A model generated the notes under the pieces. That model had not been told where the DNA came from and ran no database searches. It saw only the letters and a list, made by a program, of their open reading frames with translations. Of a stretch of 22,690 nucleotides of DNA, positions 946 to 19,212 are shown piece after piece. Positions within the stretch are counted from its first letter, which is position 1. Every line of letters begins with the position of its first letter. The position numbers and the translations under genes were made by a program. The DNA comes from a virus: the IMG/VR virus record IMGVR_UViG_3300031240_000205, positions 1 through 22,690 of that record. One strand, 5' to 3'.

Positions 946-1407
946 ATGAAATTACTAATTTTGTTTTTGTTGATGGTTCAAGTCGCTCAGGCAGCTTCGA
1001 GTGGAAATCTGTTACTGTCTGGGGTAGTGGCTCCTAACAACAGCCTGGTTATCACTCCTAATGGCACTAACAACACAACGCTTAACGTTACGGCTGGGGT
1101 TTCTAACCTAAACGTAGCTAGTGTTGCTGAAACCTCAAATGACGGTAATGGTTATAAAATTACTGCGCAGTCTGTAAACAGCGGGTTTTTGCAATTGTCA
1201 GCAACGGCTAAGGCTGCCTACACGTTTAGCTATAACGGAGCTGCCGCTATTTCTTTGACTAACGCAGCCCAGACGGTGAAAACGTCGGCTGCGTTAACTC
1301 AATTAACTACGGCGACGAGCCAAGTAGTTGTTAACGTGACAGCACTTCCTAATGCGTTAGCGGGAACTTATAGCGATACGGTGACTATTTCAATTGTAGG
1401 GTTGTGA
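946..1407 (+). CDS. Secreted fimbrial-like / spore-coat-U-like beta protein
   Basis: A 153-aa protein with a clear Sec signal peptide (MKLLILFLLMVQVAQA, cleavage expected after residue 16, A-Q-A). The mature part is Ser/Thr/Ala/Val/Asn-rich with alternating beta strands and no cysteine. It ends LAGTYSDTVTISIVGL, a last-strand signature typical of chaperone-usher-type pilins and spore-coat-U/DUF4402-like proteins (GTYxDTVTVxI). The middle (SVAETSNDGNGYKITAQS) also fits that fold. Such proteins are normally bacterial surface or pilus subunits, so this may be a gene acquired from a host, exported during infection to alter the cell surface or block receptors; that role is inference. It sits one base from both neighbours in the operon (TGATATG junctions). 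No usher or chaperone gene is present in the window. Confidence 0.65.
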   Translation: MKLLILFLLMVQVAQAASSGNLLLSGVVAPNNSLVITPNGTNNTTLNVTAGVSNLNVASVAETSNDGNGYKITAQSVNSGFLQLSATAKAAYTFSYNGAAAISLTNAAQTVKTSAALTQLTTATSQVVVNVTALPNALAGTYSDTVTISIVGL

Positions 1408-1408
1408 T

Positions 1409-1906
1409 ATGAAACTCAAAGATCAAAGTGTAGAACACATCTTAAATTCCTACGATTTCCCTAAAAGATTTCTAGTCTACTTCGCCTCTCAATGCGCTAA
1501 AGATGCCTTAGGATGTACGAAGAAGCCTGATCCTAGGTCGATAAAGGCTGTAGATGTAGCTGAACGCTACGGCTTAGGAGAAGACTTTGAAGAGGCCTAT
1601 TTAAGAGAAGTACACGGAGACGCTGACGCTGCATGGTCCGCCACCGTCACCGCCACCACCGCCGCCGCCACCGCCACCTCCGCCACCTACGCCGCCGCCG
1701 CCACCTCCGCCACCTACGCCGCCACCTACGCCGCCACCTCCGCCGCCTACGCCGCCGCCGCCACCACCGCCTACGCCAACTACGCCACCACCGCCACCTA
1801 CGCCGCCGACTACTACAAACCCCTCCTATTTAAGCTTATAAATGAAAGATTGACTAGGATAGAGAAACTGTTAATATTTGGAAAGGAGAAGGTATGTGCG
1901 AAGTAG
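1409..1906 (+). CDS. Ala/Thr/Tyr-repeat helical protein
   Basis: A 165-aa protein starting one base after the upstream stop (TGATATG). Residues 1-75 form a charged, apparently globular part (DPRSIKAVDVAERYGLGEDF). Residues 77-136 are a low-complexity tract of only Ala, Thr, Ser and Tyr with single Val, Asn and Asp residues, in motifs such as SATYAA and AATYAA. The C-terminal tail (KPLLFKLINERLTRIEKLL) is amphipathic helix. The overall plan, an Arg/Asp-rich head, a long Ala-Tyr repeat and a helical end, resembles repeat proteins seen in phages and in some proteins annotated as putative immunity (Imm5-like) proteins; this is recall only. The tract is GC-rich and C-biased, unlike the flanking sequence. 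The gene overlaps the next by 13 bases. Confidence 0.7.
   Translation: MKLKDQSVEHILNSYDFPKRFLVYFASQCAKDALGCTKKPDPRSIKAVDVAERYGLGEDFEEAYLREVHGDADAAWSATVTATTAAATATSATYAAAATSATYAATYAATSAAYAAAATTAYANYATTATYAADYYKPLLFKLINERLTRIEKLLIFGKEKVCAK
1637..1816 (+). repeat. C-biased triplet/9-bp repeat tract inside a gene
   Basis: Sixty consecutive in-frame codons all end in C, nearly all GCC, ACC, TCC or TAC. Recurrent 9-base units such as GCCACCTCC, GCCACCTAC and TACGCCGCC are arranged irregularly. All lengths stay in frame. The flanking codons of the same gene use mixed third bases. This looks like expansion of a triplet repeat rather than selection on a unique sequence. Confidence 0.85.
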
Positions 1907-2371: not shown

Positions 2372-2581
2372 ATGAAGAAGACAGATATCGCTGCCAAGAA
2401 AAAGGCTTTTAAGAAACTAAAAGCAGAAAAATTTACTACATTCTGTTCAGATAGGGTTTACAATATTTTAATAGACCAATTAGGCGCTCATGTTCAATTT
2501 GTAGAGCTGCGCATTGGAAAATTTAAATGGACGGGGATATCGCTTAATGGCTTATACATCGTCCGTGAGTTTGAGAAATAA
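2372..2581 (+). CDS. Hypothetical basic small protein (69 aa)
   Basis: The ATG at 2372 is preceded by CTTAAGGAGAATAGT, a strong Shine-Dalgarno. A longer frame begins at 2240, but its first 44 residues lie within the previous gene in another frame and lack this site, so the shorter start is chosen. The N-terminal 20 residues are strikingly basic and helical (MKKTDIAAKKKAFKKLKAEK). The rest (residues 21-69) looks like a small alpha/beta fold, ending GLYIVREFEK. Nucleic-acid binding is possible from the charge only. The last 30 bases overlap the 3' end of the convergent lysozyme gene on the other strand. Confidence 0.65.
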   Translation: MKKTDIAAKKKAFKKLKAEKFTTFCSDRVYNILIDQLGAHVQFVELRIGKFKWTGISLNGLYIVREFEK

Positions 2582-3010
2582 TCTGCGTTCATTCTCACGA
2601 CGAGTAGTAAGGCCTGCCATCGCCTTACCGCCTGACTTATTCCACTTGAGGAACTCATCGGCGGCGCCTGAGAAGTCTTCATTATTAACTTTAATTAACA
2701 AATGACTCAACTTAAACGATGTAATACCGACATTGTAGGTAAATACCACCATGGCGGAGAACTGGTTGTCATTAACAGCAGATGTTACTAACGAATTGAC
2801 GGCATTTTGGAATTTACAGAGGTCTTTTTGGAGGAGTTGGTCGGCCATAGGCTGGTTTATAACCATACCGGAGTAGACATCAGCGCCAGTATGCCCGTAT
2901 CCGATCGTAAATGGCTCAGAACCGGTTCCTGGGTCTGGATAGGCCTCTAGCCTACACCCTTCGGATTCTTTCAATAGCGCCAATCCTAGAGCGTTTACGA
3001 CCCTATCCAT
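2552..3010 (-). CDS. Endolysin, GH24 (T4/P21-type) lysozyme
   Basis: A 152-aa muramidase expected to cleave the MurNAc-GlcNAc bond of peptidoglycan at lysis. The family signature is clear in residues 15-41: catalytic Glu17 (ESEG), Asp26 (AYPDPG) nine residues later as in T4 lysozyme (E11/D20), and Thr35 in FTIGYGHT. Three extra residues (around GSE) lie between Asp and Thr compared with T4. The C-terminal helical lobe contains QFSAMVVFTYNVG, KWNKSGGKAMAGLTTRR and the ending NERRLFLKL, all typical of GH24. The length is normal for the family. There is no signal peptide or SAR helix, so it should need the holin for access. Its ATG overlaps the protease stop (TAATG). It is the last gene of the late operon, and its 3' end overlaps the convergent gene by 30 bases. 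Confidence 0.93.
   Translation of the reverse strand: MDRVVNALGLALLKESEGCRLEAYPDPGTGSEPFTIGYGHTGADVYSGMVINQPMADQLLQKDLCKFQNAVNSLVTSAVNDNQFSAMVVFTYNVGITSFKLSHLLIKVNNEDFSGAADEFLKWNKSGGKAMAGLTTRRENERRLFLKLTDDV
2560..2602. terminator. Candidate bidirectional stem at the convergent gene ends
   Basis: CGT-c-CGTGAG (2560-2569) pairs with CTCACG-ACG (2594-2602): nine base pairs with one bulged C and a 24-base loop. It straddles the stop of the plus-strand operon and the last codons of the lysozyme gene. It could slow or stop opposing transcription, but there is no U-tract and the loop is long, so this is weak. Confidence 0.25.
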
Positions 3011-3738
3011 TAGTAGCCTGCTAGGAAGGCCTTAATGTCAGTTAAAGTGACCAGGTAGCCCATATGCGTCTCGTCGTTGCCGGCTGATACAATTCCGACT
3101 AGCTTATCATTATCGTCTACTACCATGCCGCCCGAGCTACCGTGCGTTATAGAGGCTGTGGTGGCATATTCTACGATATCTATGACACAGGCGCTGATAG
3201 GGCCAAAAAAGGTCATCATATCCATAGACTTATACTTAGGCTGTGCGTTACATCTATCCTGCTCGGCATCGCTAGTAATCAAAAATGCAATAATCTTCAC
3301 TTCCTCTTGCATGATGATCTCGCCATCGCTTCGGTAAGTGTCCATACGAGCACCATGGGTGTAGGTGCGTACATGCTCGTGCATGAGAGCGTAGTCAGCT
3401 ATTTCAAGGCCTTGGAGAGCAGGGACACCTTCTAGGAGCAATAGGTCAGAGTTGGCATCTTCTGCTACAATCTTACGTTGGAGGGACTTCCCGTTTTCGA
3501 GTATTACTTTCATACTACCATCTTTAGCGATCCCTTTGCAGTGGGCGGCGGTGAGTATGTAATTTTCACCGGAAGGAGCTTTAACTTGTTCGCCTGAGCA
3601 CATTCCTTCGGCAGATTCAAGCTTGACAGCGTGTTCTCTGAAGTATTCGTTAGATTTGCCTGAGCAGGCGTGGAGAGCTAGAAGTATTAGGCCTACTGCT
3701 ATTAGACTACGAAAAATTCTGGATTGAAATAGTCGCAT
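3010..3738 (-). CDS. Lipoprotein trypsin-like serine protease in lysis cassette
   Basis: A 242-aa protein with an N-terminal basic-hydrophobic signal (RIFRSLIAVGLILLALHAC) ending in a lipobox-like LHAC with Cys25, so it should be lipid-anchored after export. The mature part is a chymotrypsin-fold peptidase: His66 in ILTAAHC, Asp98 in NSDLLLLE and Ser202 in HGSSGGMVV form a complete triad in the right order. C47 and C67 match the disulfide next to the catalytic His in chymotrypsin, and C163/C184 may form a second. A good ribosome-binding site (AAGGAAATAAT) lies at the end of the holin-like gene, one base upstream. It sits between holin-like and lysozyme genes, where T7-type phages encode spanins, and no Rz/Rz1 pair is visible. 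A lysis role against envelope proteins is inference; virion or surface-protein cleavage is the alternative. Confidence 0.88.
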   Translation of the reverse strand: MRLFQSRIFRSLIAVGLILLALHACSGKSNEYFREHAVKLESAEGMCSGEQVKAPSGENYILTAAHCKGIAKDGSMKVILENGKSLQRKIVAEDANSDLLLLEGVPALQGLEIADYALMHEHVRTYTHGARMDTYRSDGEIIMQEEVKIIAFLITSDAEQDRCNAQPKYKSMDMMTFFGPISACVIDIVEYATTASITHGSSGGMVVDDNDKLVGIVSAGNDETHMGYLVTLTDIKAFLAGY

Positions 3739-3739
3739 A

Positions 3740-4009
3740 TTATTTCCTTAGATAAGTGAGGAGTGCCATGACTCCTTCTAAAATTACGCCGAGAGTGGCT
3801 AAGAGGCCTGCAAGTTTAAGAACACCATGAACCATGTTAACGTGGGCTTTGATAGGGGCTACGTCTTTTTCCAGTAGCTCGGTACGACGAATGTGGTCTG
3901 CCAGACTGACATACTGGGCTGCCAAGGTTACATCAATAGAGCCGATATGCTCGACTACCTTGTCGATCTTATTTTCAATGCGGATGATGCGCTCGTCGGT
4001 GTCGGCCAT
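3740..4009 (-). CDS. Holin-like protein (coiled coil plus C-terminal TM)
   Basis: An 89-aa protein starting at the ATG preceded by CAAGGGATCTAAC. A frame extension to a TTG at 4027 lies inside the upstream gene and has no better site. Residues 1-58 are charged helix with heptad character (DERIIRIENKIDKVVEHI, later IRRTELLEKDVAPIKAHV). Residues 63-85 are hydrophobic (VLKLAGLLATLGVILEGV onward), one transmembrane span, ending in LTYLRK. This plan resembles XhlA/haemolysin-type holin partners and many small phage proteins found next to endolysins. Position directly before the protease and lysozyme supports a membrane-permeabilising role. It starts one base after the upstream stop. A tail-associated or spanin-like role cannot be ruled out from sequence alone. 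Confidence 0.6.
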   Translation of the reverse strand: MADTDERIIRIENKIDKVVEHIGSIDVTLAAQYVSLADHIRRTELLEKDVAPIKAHVNMVHGVLKLAGLLATLGVILEGVMALLTYLRK

Positions 4010-4010
4010 G

Positions 4011-4373
4011 TTAGATCCCTTGAGCAAACATATTGACGATAGCCGTTGTAGAGCCGGGCGTTGTTTCTATCCAGACAGCTCTAACCCATCGGTATGCCAT
4101 ATTGGAAAGGGAGATAATGGCTTGTTGTGTTGCTGCAGCTTGTGTTACTGATGCACCGGGGATGTCTACCCAGTTAGTTACTACGAAGGTCGAAGAACTT
4201 TGTCCCACTTGTGAGACATCGTTTGAGGCTTGAATCTTGAAGGTGCCTGCTGCTGTTGAATCTCCGATTAGGAGGTGGAAGCTTGCGTTGATTAGTTGAT
4301 TAGAGTCAATCTGATCGCCGTTTACAGTTGCAGAGTTGACACCTGATAAAATTTGTTTGTTTACTTGTCTCAT
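4011..4373 (-). CDS. Small structural protein, paralogue of the 130-aa protein
   Basis: A 120-aa beta-rich protein with no signal peptide. It shares a pattern with the protein encoded at 9172-9564: GTFKIQASNDVSQVG against GTFEVQASDDYSPIG, NWVDIPG against NWVTLPLG, then RWVRAVWIETTPGS against TAVRLVYTSTIAGT. Both end in a final strand of small and hydrophobic residues. Such proteins are common among podovirus structural genes and look like jelly-roll or galactose-binding-like sandwiches. No enzyme motif is present. The pair brackets the large tail fibre, so a role in fibre attachment, decoration or carbohydrate binding is plausible but inferred. The ribosome-binding site is moderate (TAGGGTGTAAT). 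Confidence 0.65.
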   Translation of the reverse strand: MRQVNKQILSGVNSATVNGDQIDSNQLINASFHLLIGDSTAAGTFKIQASNDVSQVGQSSSTFVVTNWVDIPGASVTQAAATQQAIISLSNMAYRWVRAVWIETTPGSTTAIVNMFAQGI

Positions 4374-4384
4374 ATTACACCCTA

Positions 4385-5005
4385 TTAATAATGTTCTATA
4401 ACTAAGATGACGCCTGATCCGCCGTTACCGCCGACAAACTCGCCTGCAGCCCCTCCTGCACCGCCTGCGCCAACGGCGTACGCATATGTGGCAGAAGGAG
4501 TATTGATAATTGCTTCTAGATATCCTCCAGCTGCACCGCCAACGGCGCCTATATTTCCAGAAGTCCCAGACTTAGCTCCACCGCCGCCTGCTCCAGAGTT
4601 TGTTTCAGCGCTGAAACCTTGCGATCCTGATCCGTTGCCATAGCTTCCTGCACCACCAAAAAATCCATTACCGCCAGGTCCGCCAGGGAGAGAGTTATTT
4701 CCTCCCATTGCCTGCCAGCCAGAGCCGCCAACGACAGACACCATCGTAATAGCCGGGGAATTGATTGTGGGAGTTCCGCCAGAAACAGGTCCTGCGCCGG
4801 ATCCATTTGCTCCTTTACTACCGCCGGATCCACCACCTGCAGTGAGTAGGGATGTTCCAAACGTGCTATCACTTCCAGCAGTTCCGTTATTCGTAGTAGC
4901 AGCTCCGCCGCCGCCGCCTCCGCCGATCATTTTTACTTCAATCCATTTAACGTTTGCAGGCGTCGTGTACGTTCCCGATCCACTCGTGAATCTTTGAACC
5001 GTAGG
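4385..5005 (-). repeat. Glycine-rich tip domain, copy A (paralogue of 19223-19840)
   Basis: Residues 1238-1443 of the 1443-aa fibre align in plan with residues 234-439 of the 439-aa fibre: TSGSGTYT opening, a strand ending in a run of 7-8 Gly, many GGxGG turns, then TPSATYAYAVGAGGAGGAAG against APLATYAYTIGSGGAGGAAG and a final hydrophobic strand. The two ends are conserved and the interior differs in length and sequence, as expected for receptor-binding tips that diverge between copies. Confidence 0.75.
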
Positions 5006-8000
5006 TGTCGAGCCAGAGCTGGCATTCTGCCAAGTTGGAAGCGCACTCGCCCCGTTTGACGTTAATACTTGGCCTGTAGTACCTACACCGGAGACGTTTT
5101 GAAGGGCGCCAGTAGATGTAGTTCCTCCCGTAATAACGGAGTACGCGGTGAAAGAGGTGTCGCCTGTTCCACCGTTAGCTACTGGTAACGCTGTTCCCGA
5201 AAGCGTTACAGCGAGCGTACCAGACGAAGTAATAGGAGACCCAGATACGCTGAGGAACGCGGGTACTGTTAATGCAACAGAAGTTACTGTGCCGCTAGTA
5301 GCAGGCGCCGCCCATACTGGGAGACCGCCTGAGACTGTCAGCACTTGGCCAGTAGATCCAATACCTAAGCGTGCAGCGACAGGCGTACTATTTTCATAGA
5401 TGATATCGCCTGCCGTAGTCATTGGGCTCAAGGCGTTGAATGCGGCATTGGCTGTAGTCTGCCCGGTGCCACCATTAGCGATAGCAATAGTGGTTCCATT
5501 CCACGTACCACTTGTTATAGTGCCGACAGAGGTCAGAGAAGACGTGACTACGTTGGAAGCAAGCGTCGTACCAGTCAGTGTGCCGGCAGGAGCGATAACT
5601 ACATTGCCGCTAGCGGCCGTGATTAGTCCTTTAGCATTAACAGTGAACGAGGGGATTGATGTTGAGGACCCGAAAGAGCCTACGTTAGCGTTAACGGTAG
5701 CCAGTGTAGCTACTTGAGAGCCTGATCCAGGACCTGCAGTTACGTCGCCTGTAAGTTGTGTGATGCCTGAGACAGGAGCCGCTGCCCATTTAAGGCCTAA
5801 TGCCTGTGTTGAGTCAGCGGTGAGAATAAATCCATCAGTGCCAATAGGTACTCTGTTATTGGCCGTATCGAAGCCAAGGATATCGCCCTTAGTTGTCAGA
5901 GGCGACAAGGCACCGAAAGCAGCCGAAGCGGTAGTTTGACCAGTACCGCCATTAGCTATAGGAAGCGCAGTGCCGGATAGAGTTACAGCAAGAGTACCAG
6001 ACGTAGTAATAGGGGAGCCTGAAATACTCAGAAAGCTTGGGACGGTTAAAGCGACAGAGGTTACTGTTCCGCCTGAGTTCGGAGGAGTAGCCCAAGTACC
6101 GTCTGCGCGCAGGAAGTTAACTGTGCCGCCACCTGATGCCGTAACGACACCGGGGAATGCGCTACTGAAGGGCTGCAGGTTGAGAACTTGGCCAGATAGG
6201 CTAGCGGCGTTTGCATTGGGCGAGGCGCCGACTGCAGCGAGGGTTACGTCCCCGGTGTTAGTGCCACTTGAGCTTCCAGAGAAGTTAGACGCTGTGATCG
6301 CACCGGAGAAGTTGGCGGCAGCAGCTGTAATAGTTCCTGTCAGAGTAGGAGAGGCTGAGAAAACGACGTTGCCAGTTCCCGTAGTGCCGGATACTGTAGT
6401 TCCTTGGATCTTATTGATAGTAGTTGCGCCAGATGCAACGATACTTACGTCACCTGACATAGCGACATCAGCAGCTACATTTGAGCCGTTACCGACCAAT
6501 ATATGGTTGGTGGTTAAGGAGATAGATCCCGGAGAGACTGAAGACGGCGCACTTGTCCACGTAGTTCCGTTACTCGTTAGGACATTTCCAGAGGTACCTG
6601 GAGCTACAAATTGTACCGGAGAAGTTCCATTACCTAGGATTACGTTGTTTAATGTGAGTGATGTGGACCCAGTCCCGCCGTGAGCGACAGGTACGATACC
6701 TAGGGGAACTATGGCGGCTAACTCATCCAGAGCTTGAGCAACCTGTGTGGGCGGGACTGACCAATTACCCGGCACTGCGGGACTATAGTGAACATATGGA
6801 GCTTGCGAGGTAAGTTGAAGAGTGAATGCGCCCGTTATGCTACCGGGAGGAGGCAAGCTTCCCGAGTCGCTGATAATAGTAGGAGTACCACTGCCTGTCG
6901 TTACGCCGAGAATAGTATACCCAGAGTCGGCGATACATCCGGAAACCTCAAAAGTAAGACCACCATTTAATGTAAATGTAGTTAGGTAAAGGTCTGAGGC
7001 TGTGATAATAGCAAAGGCGCCAGATCCAGCGTCTTTAATATCAATCGCTCCTTCCATGGCGGCGCCAAGGATGTAAATGGTTCCGGCTTGAACAGTTAGC
7101 GGTCCTATAAATCCGTTAGCGGCGTATATAAATGATGTAGCAGCTCCCGCACCTTGTTGTTCAAAATCGCAACCACTAGCAAACAGGACATCTGAACATA
7201 TTAAACTTATAGCCGAGGTGTCGTTTCGTACCCACGTAAAGGTCCCCGTCAGCTCTATGCCAGTCATCCATACTGTGTCGTTTGTAGAGCCCCCCGTAAT
7301 CGTTAACGCATTAATTTGAATGTTGTTCTCGGAAACCAGGCCTACGTTTGGTTTACCCGTTATAGTTCCTACGTCAGAATCATTATTTCCTCCCGATAGA
7401 TAAAAAACGTAAGGAACATTAATAGTCGGAGATACGCTGTTGTAAGCGTGCTGTAGAGTCTTCCAAGGGCTTACAAGTGTGCCGGTATTTGAATCGCTGC
7501 CGGAAACAAAATCGATATATCTTTTGTTGGGTATGTTAGCGAGTGTAGTGGCGCCCGTGTTTGAAATGGTAATATCACCGCTCATGGCGACAGGCTTAGC
7601 TAGGTTAGACGCGTTACCAACGAGAATGTCTCCGCTAGGAAGATAGAGGGAGGACGATTGTGTCGGCGCCGTCCCTGTTGGACCGACCACGAAGCTACTA
7701 TTGTAGTCACTCCACGACCCGCTATTAGCTACGGCGCTTAAAAAGGTAGTAGCAACGCTGGTCAATGTCCCGGCGTTGGTTACGGCGCCAGAACACCGAG
7801 TATATCTGAGGACAAGAGCTGAACCTGCGTCTATGCTAGTAGGACCGAAGAAATTACCGAAGGAACAATTTACAGAGGTGGCTCCGAAGCCTGACGGTTT
7901 GTTTGCGCCGCCGTTTGTAACTATAGTAACGGCGCCTAAATTAAAAAAGGTACTATACACGCCAAAAAATCCAGCGTTTTGTATAGAAACTCCGCCGGCT

Positions 8001-8716
8001 CCGCCGGAAATTGCAGACCCGCAATTTTGAAATACGAGCTGCCCGAGGTTGTTGGCCGTAATAGCCGGAGCCCCGGTACTATAAAGCATCATGTTACTGA
8101 ACGTTCCGCCATATTGGAGGAAGTTAGTTCCGTTAGATGCGCCGGTTAGGACGATGTCCCCGGTAAGATCAAAACCTTGAAAGATCAAAGCTTTTAAATT
8201 GTCGTTATTCGACGTGGAATTGATATCGCCGTCCAGCGATGTAACGGGAATGGCGTCGTTAGACATATTCCCATTTGAAATGCTGCTACTAATGATAGCT
8301 AGGCGGGTGAACGCGGCGTTGTTGAGGCTAATCCCGCCCGTGTACGTGCCTGGATGTACGTAGATAACGTAGTTGTTGCCATCATTATTGGCAATGATTC
8401 GATTCAATGCCGCTGTAATTGTTAGATAGGGCCTGAGGACGCTACCGTCAGATGTCGCAGCGCCTACATAGTTTTGATCGACATATAAATAGGTAGTGGG
8501 ACCGGCGTTTACTTGTGTAGCAGCATTGTTGAATGTATTCCAGTCGGCCGCTGTTAACACGCCTGGGAAAGAGGTGTTAGCTGGCTGTAAAGTAAGAACA
8601 TTACCGGAAACTGTTCCGGCGTCAGCATTAGGCGAAGAGCCTACTGGCGCTAGTGTTACATCATCGACAGCGTCGAAGTTACTAGTGAACGGGTTAAAGA
8701 TGTATGAAATTGCCAT
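4385..8716 (-). CDS. Large modular tail fibre / tailspike-like protein
   Basis: A 1443-aa protein, the largest in the window. Layout by residue: 1-60 N-terminal attachment region; about 75-350 a first parallel beta-helix-like module (RPYLTITAALNRI, HPGTYTGG); about 398-620 a second, opened by YIDFVSGSDSNTGTLVSPWK and TLQHAYNSV, a typical start of right-handed beta-helix/DUF1565-type domains; 675-1230 thin-shaft repeats with GGTGxTT motifs (residues 680, 923, 1082, 1182); 1238-1443 a glycine-rich domain beginning TSGSGTYTTPANVKWIEV and ending in a hydrophobic strand, as in phage glycine-rich receptor-binding tips. No polysaccharide lyase or hydrolase catalytic site was identified. It occupies the T7 gp17 position, downstream of the internal proteins and upstream of lysis genes. 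It starts one base after the previous stop. Role: host recognition. Confidence 0.85.
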   Translation of the reverse strand: MAISYIFNPFTSNFDAVDDVTLAPVGSSPNADAGTVSGNVLTLQPANTSFPGVLTAADWNTFNNAATQVNAGPTTYLYVDQNYVGAATSDGSVLRPYLTITAALNRIIANNDGNNYVIYVHPGTYTGGISLNNAAFTRLAIISSSISNGNMSNDAIPVTSLDGDINSTSNNDNLKALIFQGFDLTGDIVLTGASNGTNFLQYGGTFSNMMLYSTGAPAITANNLGQLVFQNCGSAISGGAGGVSIQNAGFFGVYSTFFNLGAVTIVTNGGANKPSGFGATSVNCSFGNFFGPTSIDAGSALVLRYTRCSGAVTNAGTLTSVATTFLSAVANSGSWSDYNSSFVVGPTGTAPTQSSSLYLPSGDILVGNASNLAKPVAMSGDITISNTGATTLANIPNKRYIDFVSGSDSNTGTLVSPWKTLQHAYNSVSPTINVPYVFYLSGGNNDSDVGTITGKPNVGLVSENNIQINALTITGGSTNDTVWMTGIELTGTFTWVRNDTSAISLICSDVLFASGCDFEQQGAGAATSFIYAANGFIGPLTVQAGTIYILGAAMEGAIDIKDAGSGAFAIITASDLYLTTFTLNGGLTFEVSGCIADSGYTILGVTTGSGTPTIISDSGSLPPPGSITGAFTLQLTSQAPYVHYSPAVPGNWSVPPTQVAQALDELAAIVPLGIVPVAHGGTGSTSLTLNNVILGNGTSPVQFVAPGTSGNVLTSNGTTWTSAPSSVSPGSISLTTNHILVGNGSNVAADVAMSGDVSIVASGATTINKIQGTTVSGTTGTGNVVFSASPTLTGTITAAAANFSGAITASNFSGSSSGTNTGDVTLAAVGASPNANAASLSGQVLNLQPFSSAFPGVVTASGGGTVNFLRADGTWATPPNSGGTVTSVALTVPSFLSISGSPITTSGTLAVTLSGTALPIANGGTGQTTASAAFGALSPLTTKGDILGFDTANNRVPIGTDGFILTADSTQALGLKWAAAPVSGITQLTGDVTAGPGSGSQVATLATVNANVGSFGSSTSIPSFTVNAKGLITAASGNVVIAPAGTLTGTTLASNVVTSSLTSVGTITSGTWNGTTIAIANGGTGQTTANAAFNALSPMTTAGDIIYENSTPVAARLGIGSTGQVLTVSGGLPVWAAPATSGTVTSVALTVPAFLSVSGSPITSSGTLAVTLSGTALPVANGGTGDTSFTAYSVITGGTTSTGALQNVSGVGTTGQVLTSNGASALPTWQNASSGSTPTVQRFTSGSGTYTTPANVKWIEVKMIGGGGGGGAATTNNGTAGSDSTFGTSLLTAGGGSGGSKGANGSGAGPVSGGTPTINSPAITMVSVVGGSGWQAMGGNNSLPGGPGGNGFFGGAGSYGNGSGSQGFSAETNSGAGGGGAKSGTSGNIGAVGGAAGGYLEAIINTPSATYAYAVGAGGAGGAAGEFVGGNGGSGVILVIEHY
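5156..5296 (-). repeat. Fibre shaft repeat, copy 2 (partner 5930-6073)
   Basis: Residues 1141-1187 of the fibre (SGTVTSVALTVPAFLSVSGS and onward to PVANGGTGDTS) repeat residues 882-929 (GGTVTSVALTVPSFLSISGS to PIANGGTGQTT) with only a few substitutions over about 47 residues. The DNA copies are clearly diverged, so this is an old duplication held by selection on protein structure. Confidence 0.8.
6137..6247 (-). repeat. Fibre module repeat (partner 8549-8659)
   Basis: Residues 824-860 (VTLAAVGASPNANAASLSGQ to FPGVVTA) repeat residues 20-56 at the N-terminus (VTLAPVGSSPNADAGTVSGN to FPGVLTA), about 800 residues apart. A second pair, residues 362-395 and 737-770 (xILVGNxSNxAxxVAMSGD), follows the same pattern. 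Repeated linkers therefore frame the beta-helix modules. Confidence 0.75.
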
Positions 8717-14377: not shown

Positions 14378-15805
14378 TTATTTTCTCTTAGGAGACATAC
14401 CTTGTTTGGCTAGGATGGCGGATACGAACTTATGTGCTTCCCAGTGAGGATGCTTCGCTTCCATGACACTCTTAGGGAGGACGATGCCGCCTTCTTCAAG
14501 AGTCTTAGGGACGATGTCGTTCTTTAGGCTGTCGCCTTTGACTTTGGCTTTACCGGGGATCTTTTCACCTGCAGATACAGCGGCTTTCTTACCTTCAGCG
14601 ACTTTTTTGACTTCTCGTGGGTTGAGATAGCGCTCACCGGGGGAAACCATGGCCGGCACTCTGCCGCCTTTAGCGTATTTATTATCGCTCGAATCACCAA
14701 AGTCTTGGCCGCCTGCAGCGCCTCCAGCCTGGACGCCATTACTATCTAGGTCCTTGTCGGAAGTCTCGCCAGGCTGTGCAACGGCGGGAGCAGCTGGCAC
14801 GTTGCCATTGTCGCCGTTAGGGTTGCTTTTGAATAGCGATCCTATTCCTTTGCCAGCCGCCATCAGCCCTTTACCTAAAGAGTTACCCATCTGTTGTGCG
14901 CCAGTCTCGCTATCTCCTGAGGATGACTGGCCTTTAAGGTGCTTACCCACATTGGAGGTAGGTGCGTTACTAGGAGAAGACGATAATGTAGGCGCGCTGG
15001 GAGCGGCAGGGGCTCCTTGGATAGGAGGAGGCGCTTGAATCTGAGGCATTGTGTTGTCCATGCCTAGGGTAGGACCGCCGTCTGCGTAATGTCTAACCAT
15101 ACCGCCTTTGGCCATTCCTGCTACGCCCATTATGGCGCTTGAAGCGCCGCCTAACAGGCCTTGTTGAGCCGTAGCGCCTGCAGCAGCTTGCTTTTGATTA
15201 GCGTTAGTCAATGTCTGTTGTTGTTGCAGTTGAGCGTTATTCTGAGCGTTAGTCTGACCGAGCAACATTCCCTCTTGTTGCTGAGCAGCCCCGGTGTAGG
15301 CGCCCTGAGCAGCCTGTTGCTGCGCTACTTGCTGGGTAGATAGACCTTGGAGTTGGCCTAATGCAGCGAGCGATTGCTGTGCCTGCATCGTAGCGCCTTG
15401 GCCTACTGCTTGTTGCTGGGTAGCGGCACCTTGTTGCGCTGCCTGACGAGCGATTAAACCTGTGTTAGCGCTTGCACCGCGCTGGCCTGCCATGAGGGCT
15501 GCTTGATTGGCTACGTTTTGGCCTGTGGACTGGTTAAGCATGGCCTGGGCCGGGTTTGGGCCTGTACCGTTAGCGACCCCTTGGAGTTGGTTATATACTT
15601 GGGATTGATTGCCAATGCCGTTTTGAGCAGCGAGAGCGTTTAGGAACTGTTGTTGTTGCTGGACGGCGCCCTGGGACTGAACCTGCGCTGCCTGAGCCTC
15701 GTCAGTTGTGATAGGCGACTGTAAAGCGACATCTTGGGGGGTCCATGCCAACCCTTGAGCCCCTGCACCGCCGCCAAGTCCTACCATTGCTCCAATACTA
15801 CCCAT
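14378..15805 (-). CDS. Internal virion / ejection-like protein (475 aa, Gln/Ala-rich)
   Basis: First of the three candidate internal proteins (T7 gp14 position). The N-terminus is Gly-rich and hydrophobic (MVGLGGGAGAQGLAW). Residues 33-215 are extremely Gln/Ala-rich helix. Residues 216-245 are small-residue hydrophobic and end in MAKGGMVRHYADGG. Residues 250-375 are disordered, Pro/Ser/Gly-rich. Residues 377-475 hold a distinct motif set: YAKGGRVPAMVSPGERYLNP, GEKIPGKAKVKGDSLKNDIV and LEEGGIVLPKSVM, a block I recall from many phage virion proteins (KGG...VSPGE...P...KV.GDS..ND). The ATG overlaps the stop of the GNAT gene (TAATG). The function of the terminal block is not known. Confidence 0.65.
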   Translation of the reverse strand: MGSIGAMVGLGGGAGAQGLAWTPQDVALQSPITTDEAQAAQVQSQGAVQQQQQFLNALAAQNGIGNQSQVYNQLQGVANGTGPNPAQAMLNQSTGQNVANQAALMAGQRGASANTGLIARQAAQQGAATQQQAVGQGATMQAQQSLAALGQLQGLSTQQVAQQQAAQGAYTGAAQQQEGMLLGQTNAQNNAQLQQQQTLTNANQKQAAAGATAQQGLLGGASSAIMGVAGMAKGGMVRHYADGGPTLGMDNTMPQIQAPPPIQGAPAAPSAPTLSSSPSNAPTSNVGKHLKGQSSSGDSETGAQQMGNSLGKGLMAAGKGIGSLFKSNPNGDNGNVPAAPAVAQPGETSDKDLDSNGVQAGGAAGGQDFGDSSDNKYAKGGRVPAMVSPGERYLNPREVKKVAEGKKAAVSAGEKIPGKAKVKGDSLKNDIVPKTLEEGGIVLPKSVMEAKHPHWEAHKFVSAILAKQGMSPKRK

Positions 15806-16131
15806 TAGATCTCTTTTCTCATGATTACAGCGTCAGGGCCTGCTTCAGATAACTCGAAGCCGTAGGCCAGTAACACTTTTAAAGCTGCCGTTGCATATTT
15901 TGCAGAAGGTTTCACCGAGCCGTAGAGGCGGTTCATGCCTTTTTCTTTAGCGATTACAGATACTTGGTCGGCGAGACGGGATGCTTCGCCTGAATGGCGC
16001 TCATCTGGGATGACGTAGATGTCTTCAATGTACATACCGTCGTGGAGTGGATAGAACGTGGCAAAACCCTTGTCATTCTCGACAATTGACTTATTCAGGC
16101 GTTCTTGGATATACTGTCCGAATAGGCTCAC
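15805..16131 (-). CDS. GNAT-fold acetyltransferase-like protein
   Basis: A 108-aa protein from a GTG start with an excellent ribosome-binding site (ATAGGAGCATCC). The frame can be read from a TTG at 16170, but those 13 codons cover a conserved intergenic element and lack a good site, so the GTG is preferred. The GNAT acetyl-CoA motif A is visible: IEDIYVIPDERHSGEASRLA (V40, R45, G48 in GTG numbering), then a helix and a beta strand (RLYGSVKP) and a C-terminal AYGFELSEAGPDAVIMRKE. It is short for GNAT because the N-terminal strands are reduced. The place between nozzle and internal proteins is that of T7 gp13, which I recall as also GNAT-related. The substrate is unknown. Confidence 0.75.
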   Translation of the reverse strand: MSLFGQYIQERLNKSIVENDKGFATFYPLHDGMYIEDIYVIPDERHSGEASRLADQVSVIAKEKGMNRLYGSVKPSAKYATAALKVLLAYGFELSEAGPDAVIMRKEI

Positions 16132-16146
16132 GGATGCTCCTATGCA

Positions 16147-16169
16147 CTCATTACGGCTAAACAGTCCCA
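16147..16169 (-). promoter_or_regulatory. Conserved intergenic element, copy 2 (TGGGACTGTTTAGC)
   Basis: An exact 14-base copy (16156-16169) of the element at 9611-9624, 20 of 23 bases identical over the extended site. It starts two bases after the stop of the 1013-aa gene and lies before the GNAT gene's GTG start. See copy 1 for the possible roles. Confidence 0.4.
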
Positions 16170-16170
16170 A

Positions 16171-19100
16171 TTAACCAACGGATCTCGAAGGCCTGAGGGT
16201 TGGGTAACCTTTCTTCATGCCTGTAACGAGGTCGAGGCCTGATATCGTTAAGCCTGCACCGGATGCCTGTCCAAACGTGGAATCATAGACTTCATTTATG
16301 CTAATCTGAAACGCTTGGCATTTCTGTTGACGTAAGAACACGCGCCATTGTTCGACTGTTGACTGTCCGCCCCAGAAAGGCGTTGATCCCCACAGAGGAT
16401 CCAGGCCCCACGCTTGAGAGTAGTTATCCGGCGTTATGAATGAAGTCTGACTAGGCGACAACTGGTAGTCATATGCAATCTGCACTTGAAGCTTATGTGG
16501 GCTCACATAGGTTCCTAGTAAGTAGAAGTAGTAGGCTCGTTCAAATCCTTGTAATCCTGCGAGGTTAAACCAAGAAGTAGTGAATGACATCAACACCGGG
16601 GATGAGCCGTCCAAATACTTAGCAGGAGTCTCTTGTCTCACCTGACTCAGTGAATTGATGTATGTATGCATGCCCTGATAGAGGGTACTTGAGATAGCAG
16701 GTACATTAACGAATGTTCCCCACTGACCGTAGTAGTAGTCATACATCAGGGTGATGCCTGAATCGAGCGTAAATCTGACTTGATTCGTACCCGGTACGTT
16801 AATTGCGCTTAACACTACGGCATCCTGAGTGAATGACTCAACTGGAGCGCCGATATAATTGGTAGAGAGGTCTCGTCCTAGCAGCCATATGCCCTTGTCG
16901 GATTGGAACAGGAGACCTGCCGGCATGAATACGATACTTTGTTGATTGGCGCAGCCTACTGTCGCCGTAATGAACACGGGCTCTGAGAACTGACTGTTAG
17001 CACCGGTGTTGTCTGGTCCAGTCCCTGCGATGTAGTAGGCAGCGTCTTGTTTAAAGAGGATGAGCTTGTCATCAAGCGACGCCATTGCTTCGATGCCGCC
17101 TGTAGAGCCCTGAGCGCCTATTGTAGGAGCTATGTAGAGTGTGAACAGGTCTGACATTTCAACCGGTGTTCCCTCAATGACTTGCTTTGAGAACCAGAGG
17201 AGGTTGTTATCTTCAGCGTCAACTAGGAACAGGCGGGATTGAAATAGTGTAATCAAATCAGTAGCTGGAGCGGCAATATCTTCTACGACTCCGCCAGTCG
17301 TATATAGAATGTTATTGCCTGCGATAGTGTCGTCAGAGTTGGTATCTGTGATTACAACGTAGTCAATTGTCGTGTCGTTAAGCGTTGGGACAGTAAGTGA
17401 TGTAGTCTGATAATAGATTTGCTGACCTTCTGACCAGCGATAGAGAACAATTCTCACCGGATTGACTATCTTATAAGTAAGTCTAAGTGTGGGTACATCA
17501 ATAGTTACTGAGCACGTAGAGCTTCCAGCGCCAGATAGGTCAACTTCCACCGGGATAGACGGTGCCGACCTGAAGACATTTCCTTGATTATCACTCCACT
17601 CATAGGTAGCGACGTAGAAATAGATCTGAGAGGTCATAGAGCCCCCCGTACTCTGCCCTGTCGCCTCTACAGAGTCGGGCCAGAGGTGGAAGTTATGCTC
17701 GACAGGCAGGAAGCCGTCATACATCCACATGAATCCACCTGATATGTGTAGGTCATGCCCAATCTCACCGGTTGTGATCTTAGAAACGCCCAGCGTAAAG
17801 TTAGCAAGGTTAATGCCTGTCTGTGAATAGACTCCCGCAGCATTAGGCGCCCCTTGGGTTTTATTAACGGCCGAAATTAAATCTTTGTACAAGTAGGGTA
17901 CTTGGGCTACGTTGTCATTGACAGTGACATTAGGCAGTCCAGTTGTGTAATAGGCACTCACGGCATTGCTATAGGCAAGCTTAGCGACAATGTTTCCATC
18001 TTCGTCGGATAGGAAGTAGGTTGGTTGAAAGACTGAGTTGTAGATTGTTAAGAAATAACAAATATCAGCCACTTCAAATGCCTTAGAGGCTAACCCTACT
18101 CCGCGTAAGAGTGTGGTCGTAGAACTTACAGAGCCTGCTTGAGTAACGGTTACTTTGTTTATGAAGTTACCGGGTAGCGCTGTGTCATAAGCAGGATGAC
18201 TCAATACTTCGTAGAAGATATCGCATGCCCCGTTGTCGGCACACGGCGTGAGGTTCTCAACCGTCCCTGAGGATATAATCTGCGTAGGGGCGAGAATTGT
18301 CGCCATAGCGTTGTCTACGGCGAGAACGTAGCCTGACGTAGAGCTTTGCTTGTAGAATGCTACATAGATAATAGGGGAGGAGCCTGATAAGTCAGGGGAT
18401 AATCCTATGATATTGCAGCTATAGCCTGGGAATATCACCGTGTTGGATTGGTTAAGGGTAGCGCTGAGCGAAGTCATTCTAACCGCGCCCCCTAAGTCAG
18501 ACCCATTCCAAGCAATGTAGAGTTGGTTACTGACAACTACGCCGTCAAAAGAGACTGAAGAGGCGTTGCCATACTGCACCGAGATGTCGCTATTCGTAGT
18601 GACCGATGTAGGTATGGCGGTGTTAACTGCAACGTACTGAAGATGAGCCGTTGCAGATATGACGTTAGTGAACACTATGATAAAGTAACGTCCCAATGCA
18701 AACACTCTGGGAGACCCGGTAACTGTGCCCGATACTACGGGTATGAGTGTTGGGGGAACGATATTCTCACCGGTGATTGAGTCGGCGATAACGTACTTGT
18801 ATGCAACGCCTGAAGGCGGGTTATCTGTAAACACAGTGCAGATAAGGCCGTTCGGCGCAATGGCTGAATCCATTTGCGATTGGTTAGTGCCTGATCGAAA
18901 GATGGATTCAGTAGACAGCTTAACTGGAAGAATATGGCCTTTTTGAGTCCAAGTTTCAGTTCCTGCGGAATAAGATTGAAGCGTGGTACCTAATGCCGTT
19001 AAGTTGCCATTATAAGTTGTGAGGTATGTTGAGTTATTATTAGGAAGCGATGTCAACGCGCCAAAACCATTACGCTTTTGTAGCAGGCCGCCCTTGTCAA

Positions 19101-19212
19101 AGATGGTATTCTCAAGGGATAGGAACTTCCCTGGAGTTACTTGAAAAGGGTCTGTCTTAGTGTCGAGTCCTTGGCTGAAGTTGACGTTAAGGACTTGTTT
19201 CTGTAGCGCCAT
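16171..19212 (-). CDS. Tail nozzle / tail tube protein (T7 gp12 / P22 gp10-like)
   Basis: A 1013-aa protein with a highly characteristic start: LNVNFSQGLDTKTDPFQVTP followed by GKFLSLENTIFDKGGLLQKR and NGFG, the N-terminal signature of podovirus tail tubular B/stabilisation proteins. The body is a long series of beta strands compatible with the beta-propeller-plus-platform fold of nozzle proteins. Around residues 685-800 are the blocks FQSRLFLVDAEDNNLLWFSK, LDDKLILFKQDAAYYIAG and LLFQSDKGIWLLGRD, and later YDYYYGQWGTF and GLQGFERAYYFYLLGTY, all usual in this family. Role: forms the distal tail tube and closes the DNA channel. It starts 10 bases after the glycine-rich fibre stop with AAGG upstream. 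Confidence 0.85.
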   Translation of the reverse strand: MALQKQVLNVNFSQGLDTKTDPFQVTPGKFLSLENTIFDKGGLLQKRNGFGALTSLPNNNSTYLTTYNGNLTALGTTLQSYSAGTETWTQKGHILPVKLSTESIFRSGTNQSQMDSAIAPNGLICTVFTDNPPSGVAYKYVIADSITGENIVPPTLIPVVSGTVTGSPRVFALGRYFIIVFTNVISATAHLQYVAVNTAIPTSVTTNSDISVQYGNASSVSFDGVVVSNQLYIAWNGSDLGGAVRMTSLSATLNQSNTVIFPGYSCNIIGLSPDLSGSSPIIYVAFYKQSSTSGYVLAVDNAMATILAPTQIISSGTVENLTPCADNGACDIFYEVLSHPAYDTALPGNFINKVTVTQAGSVSSTTTLLRGVGLASKAFEVADICYFLTIYNSVFQPTYFLSDEDGNIVAKLAYSNAVSAYYTTGLPNVTVNDNVAQVPYLYKDLISAVNKTQGAPNAAGVYSQTGINLANFTLGVSKITTGEIGHDLHISGGFMWMYDGFLPVEHNFHLWPDSVEATGQSTGGSMTSQIYFYVATYEWSDNQGNVFRSAPSIPVEVDLSGAGSSTCSVTIDVPTLRLTYKIVNPVRIVLYRWSEGQQIYYQTTSLTVPTLNDTTIDYVVITDTNSDDTIAGNNILYTTGGVVEDIAAPATDLITLFQSRLFLVDAEDNNLLWFSKQVIEGTPVEMSDLFTLYIAPTIGAQGSTGGIEAMASLDDKLILFKQDAAYYIAGTGPDNTGANSQFSEPVFITATVGCANQQSIVFMPAGLLFQSDKGIWLLGRDLSTNYIGAPVESFTQDAVVLSAINVPGTNQVRFTLDSGITLMYDYYYGQWGTFVNVPAISSTLYQGMHTYINSLSQVRQETPAKYLDGSSPVLMSFTTSWFNLAGLQGFERAYYFYLLGTYVSPHKLQVQIAYDYQLSPSQTSFITPDNYSQAWGLDPLWGSTPFWGGQSTVEQWRVFLRQQKCQAFQISINEVYDSTFGQASGAGLTISGLDLVTGMKKGYPTLRPSRSVG

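Follow-up and report, generated by a model that had tools for sequence, protein, structure and literature searches.

What does a secreted serine protease do when its gene lies between a holin-like gene and an endolysin gene, and does it stand in for the spanins? The question arises from a stretch of DNA of 22,690 bp (hereafter the window), which comprises the whole of the IMG/VR record IMGVR_UViG_3300031240_000205 and is a fragment of a phage genome. The means by which spanin-less phages disrupt the outer membrane was left unresolved by Kongari et al., who found 91 of 677 surveyed phages to be without an identifiable spanin and asked about another route (PMC6139136). For the window, the original prediction had proposed such a route, a lipid-anchored protease that breaks the outer membrane without spanins. 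The present analysis points to an accessory role, that of an active, exported protease of the chymotrypsin fold that would be made late and would assist lysis or release by cleaving envelope proteins, a reading to which a probability of roughly 0.55 is assigned.

The protease and its place in the window

The protease gene occupies positions 3010-3738 as an intact open reading frame, as had been proposed, with the correction that it is read from the minus strand, from the ATG at 3738 to a stop codon that ends at 3010. Its product of 242 residues is identified as a secreted lipoprotein serine protease from the sequence, Pfam, alignment, AlphaFold2 and Foldseek taken together. The signal peptide and lipobox span residues 1-25 (3664-3738, minus strand) and end, both by direct reading and in a lipobox scan, in LLALHA-C25, the cysteine that the original prediction had singled out. 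Residue +2 is a serine, so the Asp retention signal is lacking, and the protein carries the signal of an outer-membrane lipoprotein (lipobox cysteine, no aspartate at +2), a location that is predicted from the N-terminus. In a transmembrane scan the only peak is N-terminal.

The catalytic triad had also been placed correctly. The codons of His66 (in YILTAAHC; 3541-3543), Asp98 (in NSDLLLLEG; 3445-3447) and Ser202 (in GSSGG; 3133-3135), all on the minus strand, fall in canonical motifs, and the three residues are unchanged across the seven members of the family described below, as well as in a nine-member alignment that adds two distant trypsin-like proteins. In a five-member alignment, C25, C47, C67, C163 and C184 are invariant together with H66, D98 and S202. 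Among Pfam families, the protein matches Trypsin_2 (E=1.2e-8; score 36.3 bits, cutoff 27.6) and, also above its curated cutoff, Trypsin (E=8e-7). An AlphaFold2 model built on the nine-sequence alignment reached a pLDDT of 89.6 and a pTM of 0.82; the alignment was needed, as the single sequence without relatives gave an unusable model (pLDDT 37). Foldseek places the nine-sequence model with DegP, DegS and MarP at probability 1.00 (E ~1e-10), and a profile search with the protease family likewise retrieves HtrA proteases in the PDB (E ~1e-14). By its triad and its modeled double beta-barrel, the protein is a chymotrypsin-fold serine protease (PA clan, S1) with predicted activity.

The resemblance to the HtrA/Deg proteases (DegS, DegP, DegQ; MEROPS S1C) and to MarP (Rv3671c) extends to the chymotrypsin double-barrel fold, the His/Asp/Ser triad, the GNSGG/GSSGG motif and a periplasmic setting. 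However, the window protease is a lipoprotein, has no PDZ domain in its 242 residues, and has an extra segment ahead of the catalytic serine that bears the conserved C163 and C184 and is absent from the aligned distant proteins. Pfam finds no PDZ match in it, the model matches the protease domain of DegS/DegP alone, and the NCBIfam models for DegQ, DegS and DegP score ~20-28 bits versus cutoffs of at least 400, and membership of HtrA/Deg (S1C) was therefore rejected. The best phage families for both the window protein and the distant set discussed below are PHROG 9683 ('protease') and PHROG 11383, which are partial, weak matches (40 bits) categorized as 'other' or unknown, with no lysis role assigned.

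All genes of the cassette lie on the minus strand, in the order tail fiber, 120-residue protein, holin-like protein, protease and GH24 endolysin. The upstream end is formed by a repetitive tail-fiber-like protein of 1443 residues (4385-8716), which is followed by the 120-residue protein (4011-4373), similar-looking counterparts of which were noted by eye at this place in several relatives. The holin-like protein (95 residues; 3740-4027; TTG listed as the start, with an ATG at codon 7) has an N-terminal coiled-coil-like region with an HIRRT motif and one C-terminal transmembrane segment, an arrangement of the XhlA type, and matches phrog_689 'holin' (E=5e-4). Its end is separated by 2 bases from the start of the protease, the stop codon of which overlaps the start of the GH24 endolysin (152 residues; 2552-3010; Pfam E=1.6e-41) in the sequence TAATG. 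The PHROG and Pfam matches thus agree with the position originally described for the protease, between a holin-like gene and a GH24 endolysin. No N-terminal transmembrane or SAR segment was detected in the endolysin by the transmembrane scan.

Elsewhere in the window, a GNAT acetyltransferase-like gene (15805-16170, minus strand) lies within the structural block, with conserved counterparts in 8 sister phages. Beyond the endolysin, on the opposite strand, a gene at 946-1407 (plus) encodes a 153-residue protein with a clear signal peptide and no family match. The adjoining gene at 1409-1906 (plus) contains, as do L208:12567-13172 and L032:14256-14525, long low-complexity tracts of Ala/Thr/Tyr or Ala/Thr/Pro that are encoded by near-perfect short repeats, and may be a hypervariable gene.

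Relatives of the protease and their lysis genes

With the protease alone as query, no close relative was found in IMG/VR, GTDB genomes, INPHARED or PLSDB. Relatives were instead reached by way of a conserved structural protein of 1013 residues (16171-19212, minus strand), which defines a group of ~70 uncultured phages, and then by scans with growing alignments. This structural protein has no match among the 50,697 phage records of INPHARED, and no T7-like gene was recognized among the window genes scanned by PHROGs and Pfam; the description of the phage as T7-type was therefore dropped. Screening 69 other records of the group with the window protease yielded two clear homologues (in G045 and G048), to which a later alignment scan added those of G070, G071, G073 and the fragment G072, all six being from uncultured phages and 41-48% identical to the window protein. 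The window's structural proteins upstream of the cassette have homologues in each of the six, which places them in the same phage group. The sole bacterial match is one contig of a Burkholderiales metagenome-assembled genome, possibly mis-binned, and none of 80 loci with endolysins similar to that of the window has an adjacent trypsin-like gene. The protease is carried by only a small minority of the group and is therefore not required for lysis in it.

All seven members have a secretion signal, and five have a lipobox cysteine (window, G045, G070, G071 and, in a weak motif, G048), the proteins of G072 and G073 having a hydrophobic N-terminus without it. As judged from these N-termini, the lipid anchor is dispensable within the family, and no mechanism that depends on it can hold for the family as a whole.

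A holin-like gene directly adjoins the protease in every one of the seven members, and an endolysin gene is directly adjacent in five. The identity of these neighbors changes. The holin-like protein is of the coiled-coil type with a C-terminal transmembrane segment in the window, G045, G070, G071 and G073 (with homologues of the window protein itself preceding the protease in G045 and G071, and a weak XhlA match in G073), and of an unrelated type in G048 (phrog_199) and G072 (Phage_holin_4_1), the holin gene of G072 coming after the protease. The endolysin partner is a co-directional GH24 enzyme in the window, G048 and G073, where the TAATG overlap is also retained, a convergent GH24 enzyme in G070, and an M15 peptidase in G071 (by Pfam) and G072 (by motif), the GH24 assignments in the relatives resting on motif and resemblance; G045 has a DUF5675 neighbor (Pfam) and no recognized endolysin adjacent. 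A naive gene-count estimate puts the chance of holin adjacency in two cassettes with unrelated holins at ~4e-3, a figure that covers those two cassettes only. As the seven members share ancestry and are not independent, the argument rests on repeated retention rather than on a p-value: the protease is a component of the lysis cassette and keeps its place while holins and endolysins are exchanged.

DUF5675-like genes recur in the phage group (L208:10462-10863, by Pfam; L032:8751-9149 and L230:5826-6323, by resemblance); those of L208 and L230 lie near a holin-like gene, and the family is a candidate lysis component.

Possible roles at the host envelope

The preferred explanation is built on the gene, its triad, the fold prediction, the secretion signal and the cassette position beside changing neighbors. 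The packed, co-directional genes suggest that the protease would be expressed late, on one transcript with the holin and the endolysin. It would be exported and held in the periplasm by its lipid anchor, the outer membrane being the probable site of attachment, and there may cleave host envelope proteins such as outer-membrane, peptidoglycan-tethering or surface-layer proteins; its natural substrates could be proteins that link the outer membrane to the wall, or surface proteins. Once the holin has fired and the wall has been cut, the envelope would give way and the progeny could leave cleanly.

Accessory action in lysis is not the only use to which such an enzyme could be put. Some phages encode receptor-blocking lipoproteins, T5 Llp and phi80 Cor among them, and a secreted and often lipid-anchored protease could similarly strip receptors or other proteins from the cell surface toward the end of infection, which would keep progeny from rebinding to debris or would prevent superinfection. 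The occurrence in the phage group of secreted proteases of several lineages and in several positions fits targets on the host surface. However, the lysis cassettes that hold all seven members of the family close the late region, a position that, to judge from gene order, would be late for superinfection exclusion, and no surface-export signal is recognizable in the protein; surface shaving is accordingly considered rather unlikely.

Spanins, distant proteases and known lysis factors

A distant protein of contig L264/G074, likewise encoded in a lysis cassette, led to trypsin-like proteins of cultured phages. In the Sulfitobacter phages pCB2047-A and NYA-2014a, a GH108 endolysin gene is followed by genes for small membrane proteins, XhlA, the protease and a metallophosphatase-like protein; the protein of pCB2047-C shows full identity across the 90% that aligns. 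The cassette of Mae-JY35 runs from an amidase endolysin through a holin-like gene, an i-spanin, an o-spanin and a 105-residue protein to the protease. A scan with this distant set found 18 loci, with recognizable lysis genes (endolysin, holin or spanin) no more than a few kb from the protease in at least 8 of them, and in four (L288, L301, L302 and L304) the protease lies beside DNA-metabolism or packaging genes. Like the window protein, those of the Sulfitobacter phages and Mae-JY35 are secreted, of the Trypsin_2 type and encoded beside endolysin and holin genes; they differ in having no BLAST-detectable match to it and in bearing a cleavable signal peptide rather than a lipobox, and the distant set as a whole has signal peptides without clear lipoboxes. 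An HTH and metallophosphatase-like gene was also seen directly 3' of the second-set protease at L265:6558-7709, L267:5724-6968 and L290:4743-5993.

The window protease shares with the Rz/Rz1 spanins of lambda and T7 its position in the cassette and, with Rz1, the outer-membrane type of lipoprotein, and the original prediction had it break the outer membrane in their place, presumably by cutting lipoprotein tethers. In agreement with this proposal, the six frames of the 22,690-bp fragment show no Rz/Rz1 pair, and within that fragment the earlier statement to that effect holds; the protease is the sole convincing lipoprotein encoded there, and no spanin embedded in the protease gene was found in any frame. 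The Rz family PF03245 scores above cutoff in none of 46 records, and a plausible small Rz1-like lipoprotein was found neither in the window nor in G045, G048 and G070, a single 41-residue candidate in G070 looking like noise; G071 encodes two small lipoproteins to which no role is assigned. Among the cultured phages, the temperate pCB2047-A, with its protease in the cassette, yielded no lipobox ORF in a scan of its 40.9 kb record. However, the lipoprotein scan, which recovered the Rz1 proteins of lambda and T7, missed LysC of P2, and several of the sister sequences are partial, so that absence from it is no proof.

More telling is the presence of spanins beside the protease. The cassette of Mae-JY35 contains a genuine two-component spanin (phrog_1026 and phrog_1275), and those of L297, L300 and L303 contain a PHROG Rz-like protein with an overlapping or adjacent lipoprotein gene; a lipoprotein gene is also found in the cassettes of L294 and L298. 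Furthermore, 11 of 27 sister phages without the protease are also without any small lipoprotein candidate, which means that the presence of the protease does not track the absence of spanins, and spanin scarcity, as far as these scans reach, is as much a trait of the phage group at large as of those phages that have the protease. The lipid anchor, moreover, is missing from two of the seven family members. The window protein itself was rejected as a spanin, being a globular 242-residue enzyme with an N-terminal transmembrane peak only and no Rz-type inner-membrane partner in the window. Replacement of Rz/Rz1 by the protease alone is for these reasons doubtful, and as a general non-spanin way of breaking the outer membrane it is not supported, given the spanin-bearing cassettes. 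What stands of the proposed lysis role is a membrane-targeted, triad-complete protease in a lysis cassette, next to a holin-like gene throughout its family; what is not supported is substitution for spanins in general, together with the expected co-occurrence with spanin loss. A tentative extension, which is possible though well short of an even chance, is that envelope proteases are an additional, unrecognized class of lysis-cassette protein in phages of Gram-negative bacteria, acquired more than once and made together with the holin and the endolysin; by cutting protein tethers they would detach or weaken the outer membrane, and they would provide the main outer-membrane step where spanins are lacking, as in the window family and pCB2047-A.

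Two further roles are very unlikely. The constancy of the holin-like neighbor and the translational coupling to the endolysin could reflect control of lysis timing through trimming of either protein, but the types of holin and endolysin vary between members, which argues against a sequence-specific partner, and the window endolysin lacks a hydrophobic N-terminus from which a protease would have to free it; liberation of a SAR endolysin (compare Mu releasin) was rejected on the same ground. Phage late operons often carry accessory genes at their ends, and the patchy distribution of the protease would suit a passenger of host origin, an HtrA-like enzyme with a benefit in stress, predation or periplasmic quality control, but the gene lies between the holin-like and endolysin genes rather than at a permissive operon end, overlaps the endolysin start in three members, and recurs where further phages keep their lysis genes.

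The fold of the enzyme is a known one, and secreted trypsin-like proteins appear in the annotations of Sulfitobacter phages and others, where no role in lysis is assigned to them; in the open-access literature no description was found of trypsin-like or other serine proteases as lysis-cassette proteins. Other non-canonical lysis factors of Gram-negative hosts include the disruptins, which are antimicrobial-peptide-like, and the releasin of Mu. The protease resembles both in being non-canonical and differs from them in that a protease domain is shown neither for releasin gp25 (PMC9239132) nor for the disruptins (PMC9636201). A precedent for peptidase-dependent lysis, by different proteins, may be seen in LypABC of Caulobacter, where catalytic-serine mutants of LypA and LypC abolish the host lysis mediated by the gene transfer agent (GTA), a trypsin-like peptidase activity thus being required to free phage-like particles (PMC13236601). 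However, the Lyp proteins are CARD-NLR-like multidomain host proteins of another compartment and not secreted lipoproteins.

The retention of such a protease in place by the window's relatives and by unrelated phages suggests protein cutting as an accessory release step in Gram-negative cells, and its recurrence between holin and endolysin genes offers a concrete enzymatic candidate for the outer-membrane breach in spanin-less phages. The proteases found beside true spanins separate two claims, that proteolysis is part of the lysis program and that it replaces spanins. Cultured carriers (Sulfitobacter phages pCB2047-A, pCB2047-C and NYA-2014a) and a one-residue null, S202A, make the idea testable. 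Beyond phage biology, so small a protease acting on the envelope might find use in permeabilizing the outer membrane.

Further proteases are encoded by the same phage group. G012, G031 and G033 have trypsin-like proteases away from lysis genes, which shows that secreted proteases can serve these phages in other ways and counts against a lysis role. In G012 (L024:7912-8565, minus strand) a second such gene, distant in sequence and coding for a secreted protein, is flanked by capsid and tail genes; the metagenome of G012 (3300011416) also contains L262, a fragment that encodes a lysis-cassette member at 4956-5711, and one phage may carry both. Outside the close family, a transmembrane-anchored trypsin-like protein of 311 residues in G043 (L210:8072-9007) has its gene ~0.4 kb upstream of that for a GH24-like endolysin. 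The same type of anchor occurs on a protease of an unrelated class in G060 (contig positions 30797-31645, minus strand, equivalent to L239:13963-14811), where a 282-residue lipoprotein with the papain-like cysteine protease motifs DQGACGSCWAFS and NSWGKSWG is encoded near packaging genes, outside the lysis cassette, and G057 (L237:242-679, minus strand) encodes a secreted or lipoprotein-like protein of 145 residues with an HELGH zinc-protease-like motif.
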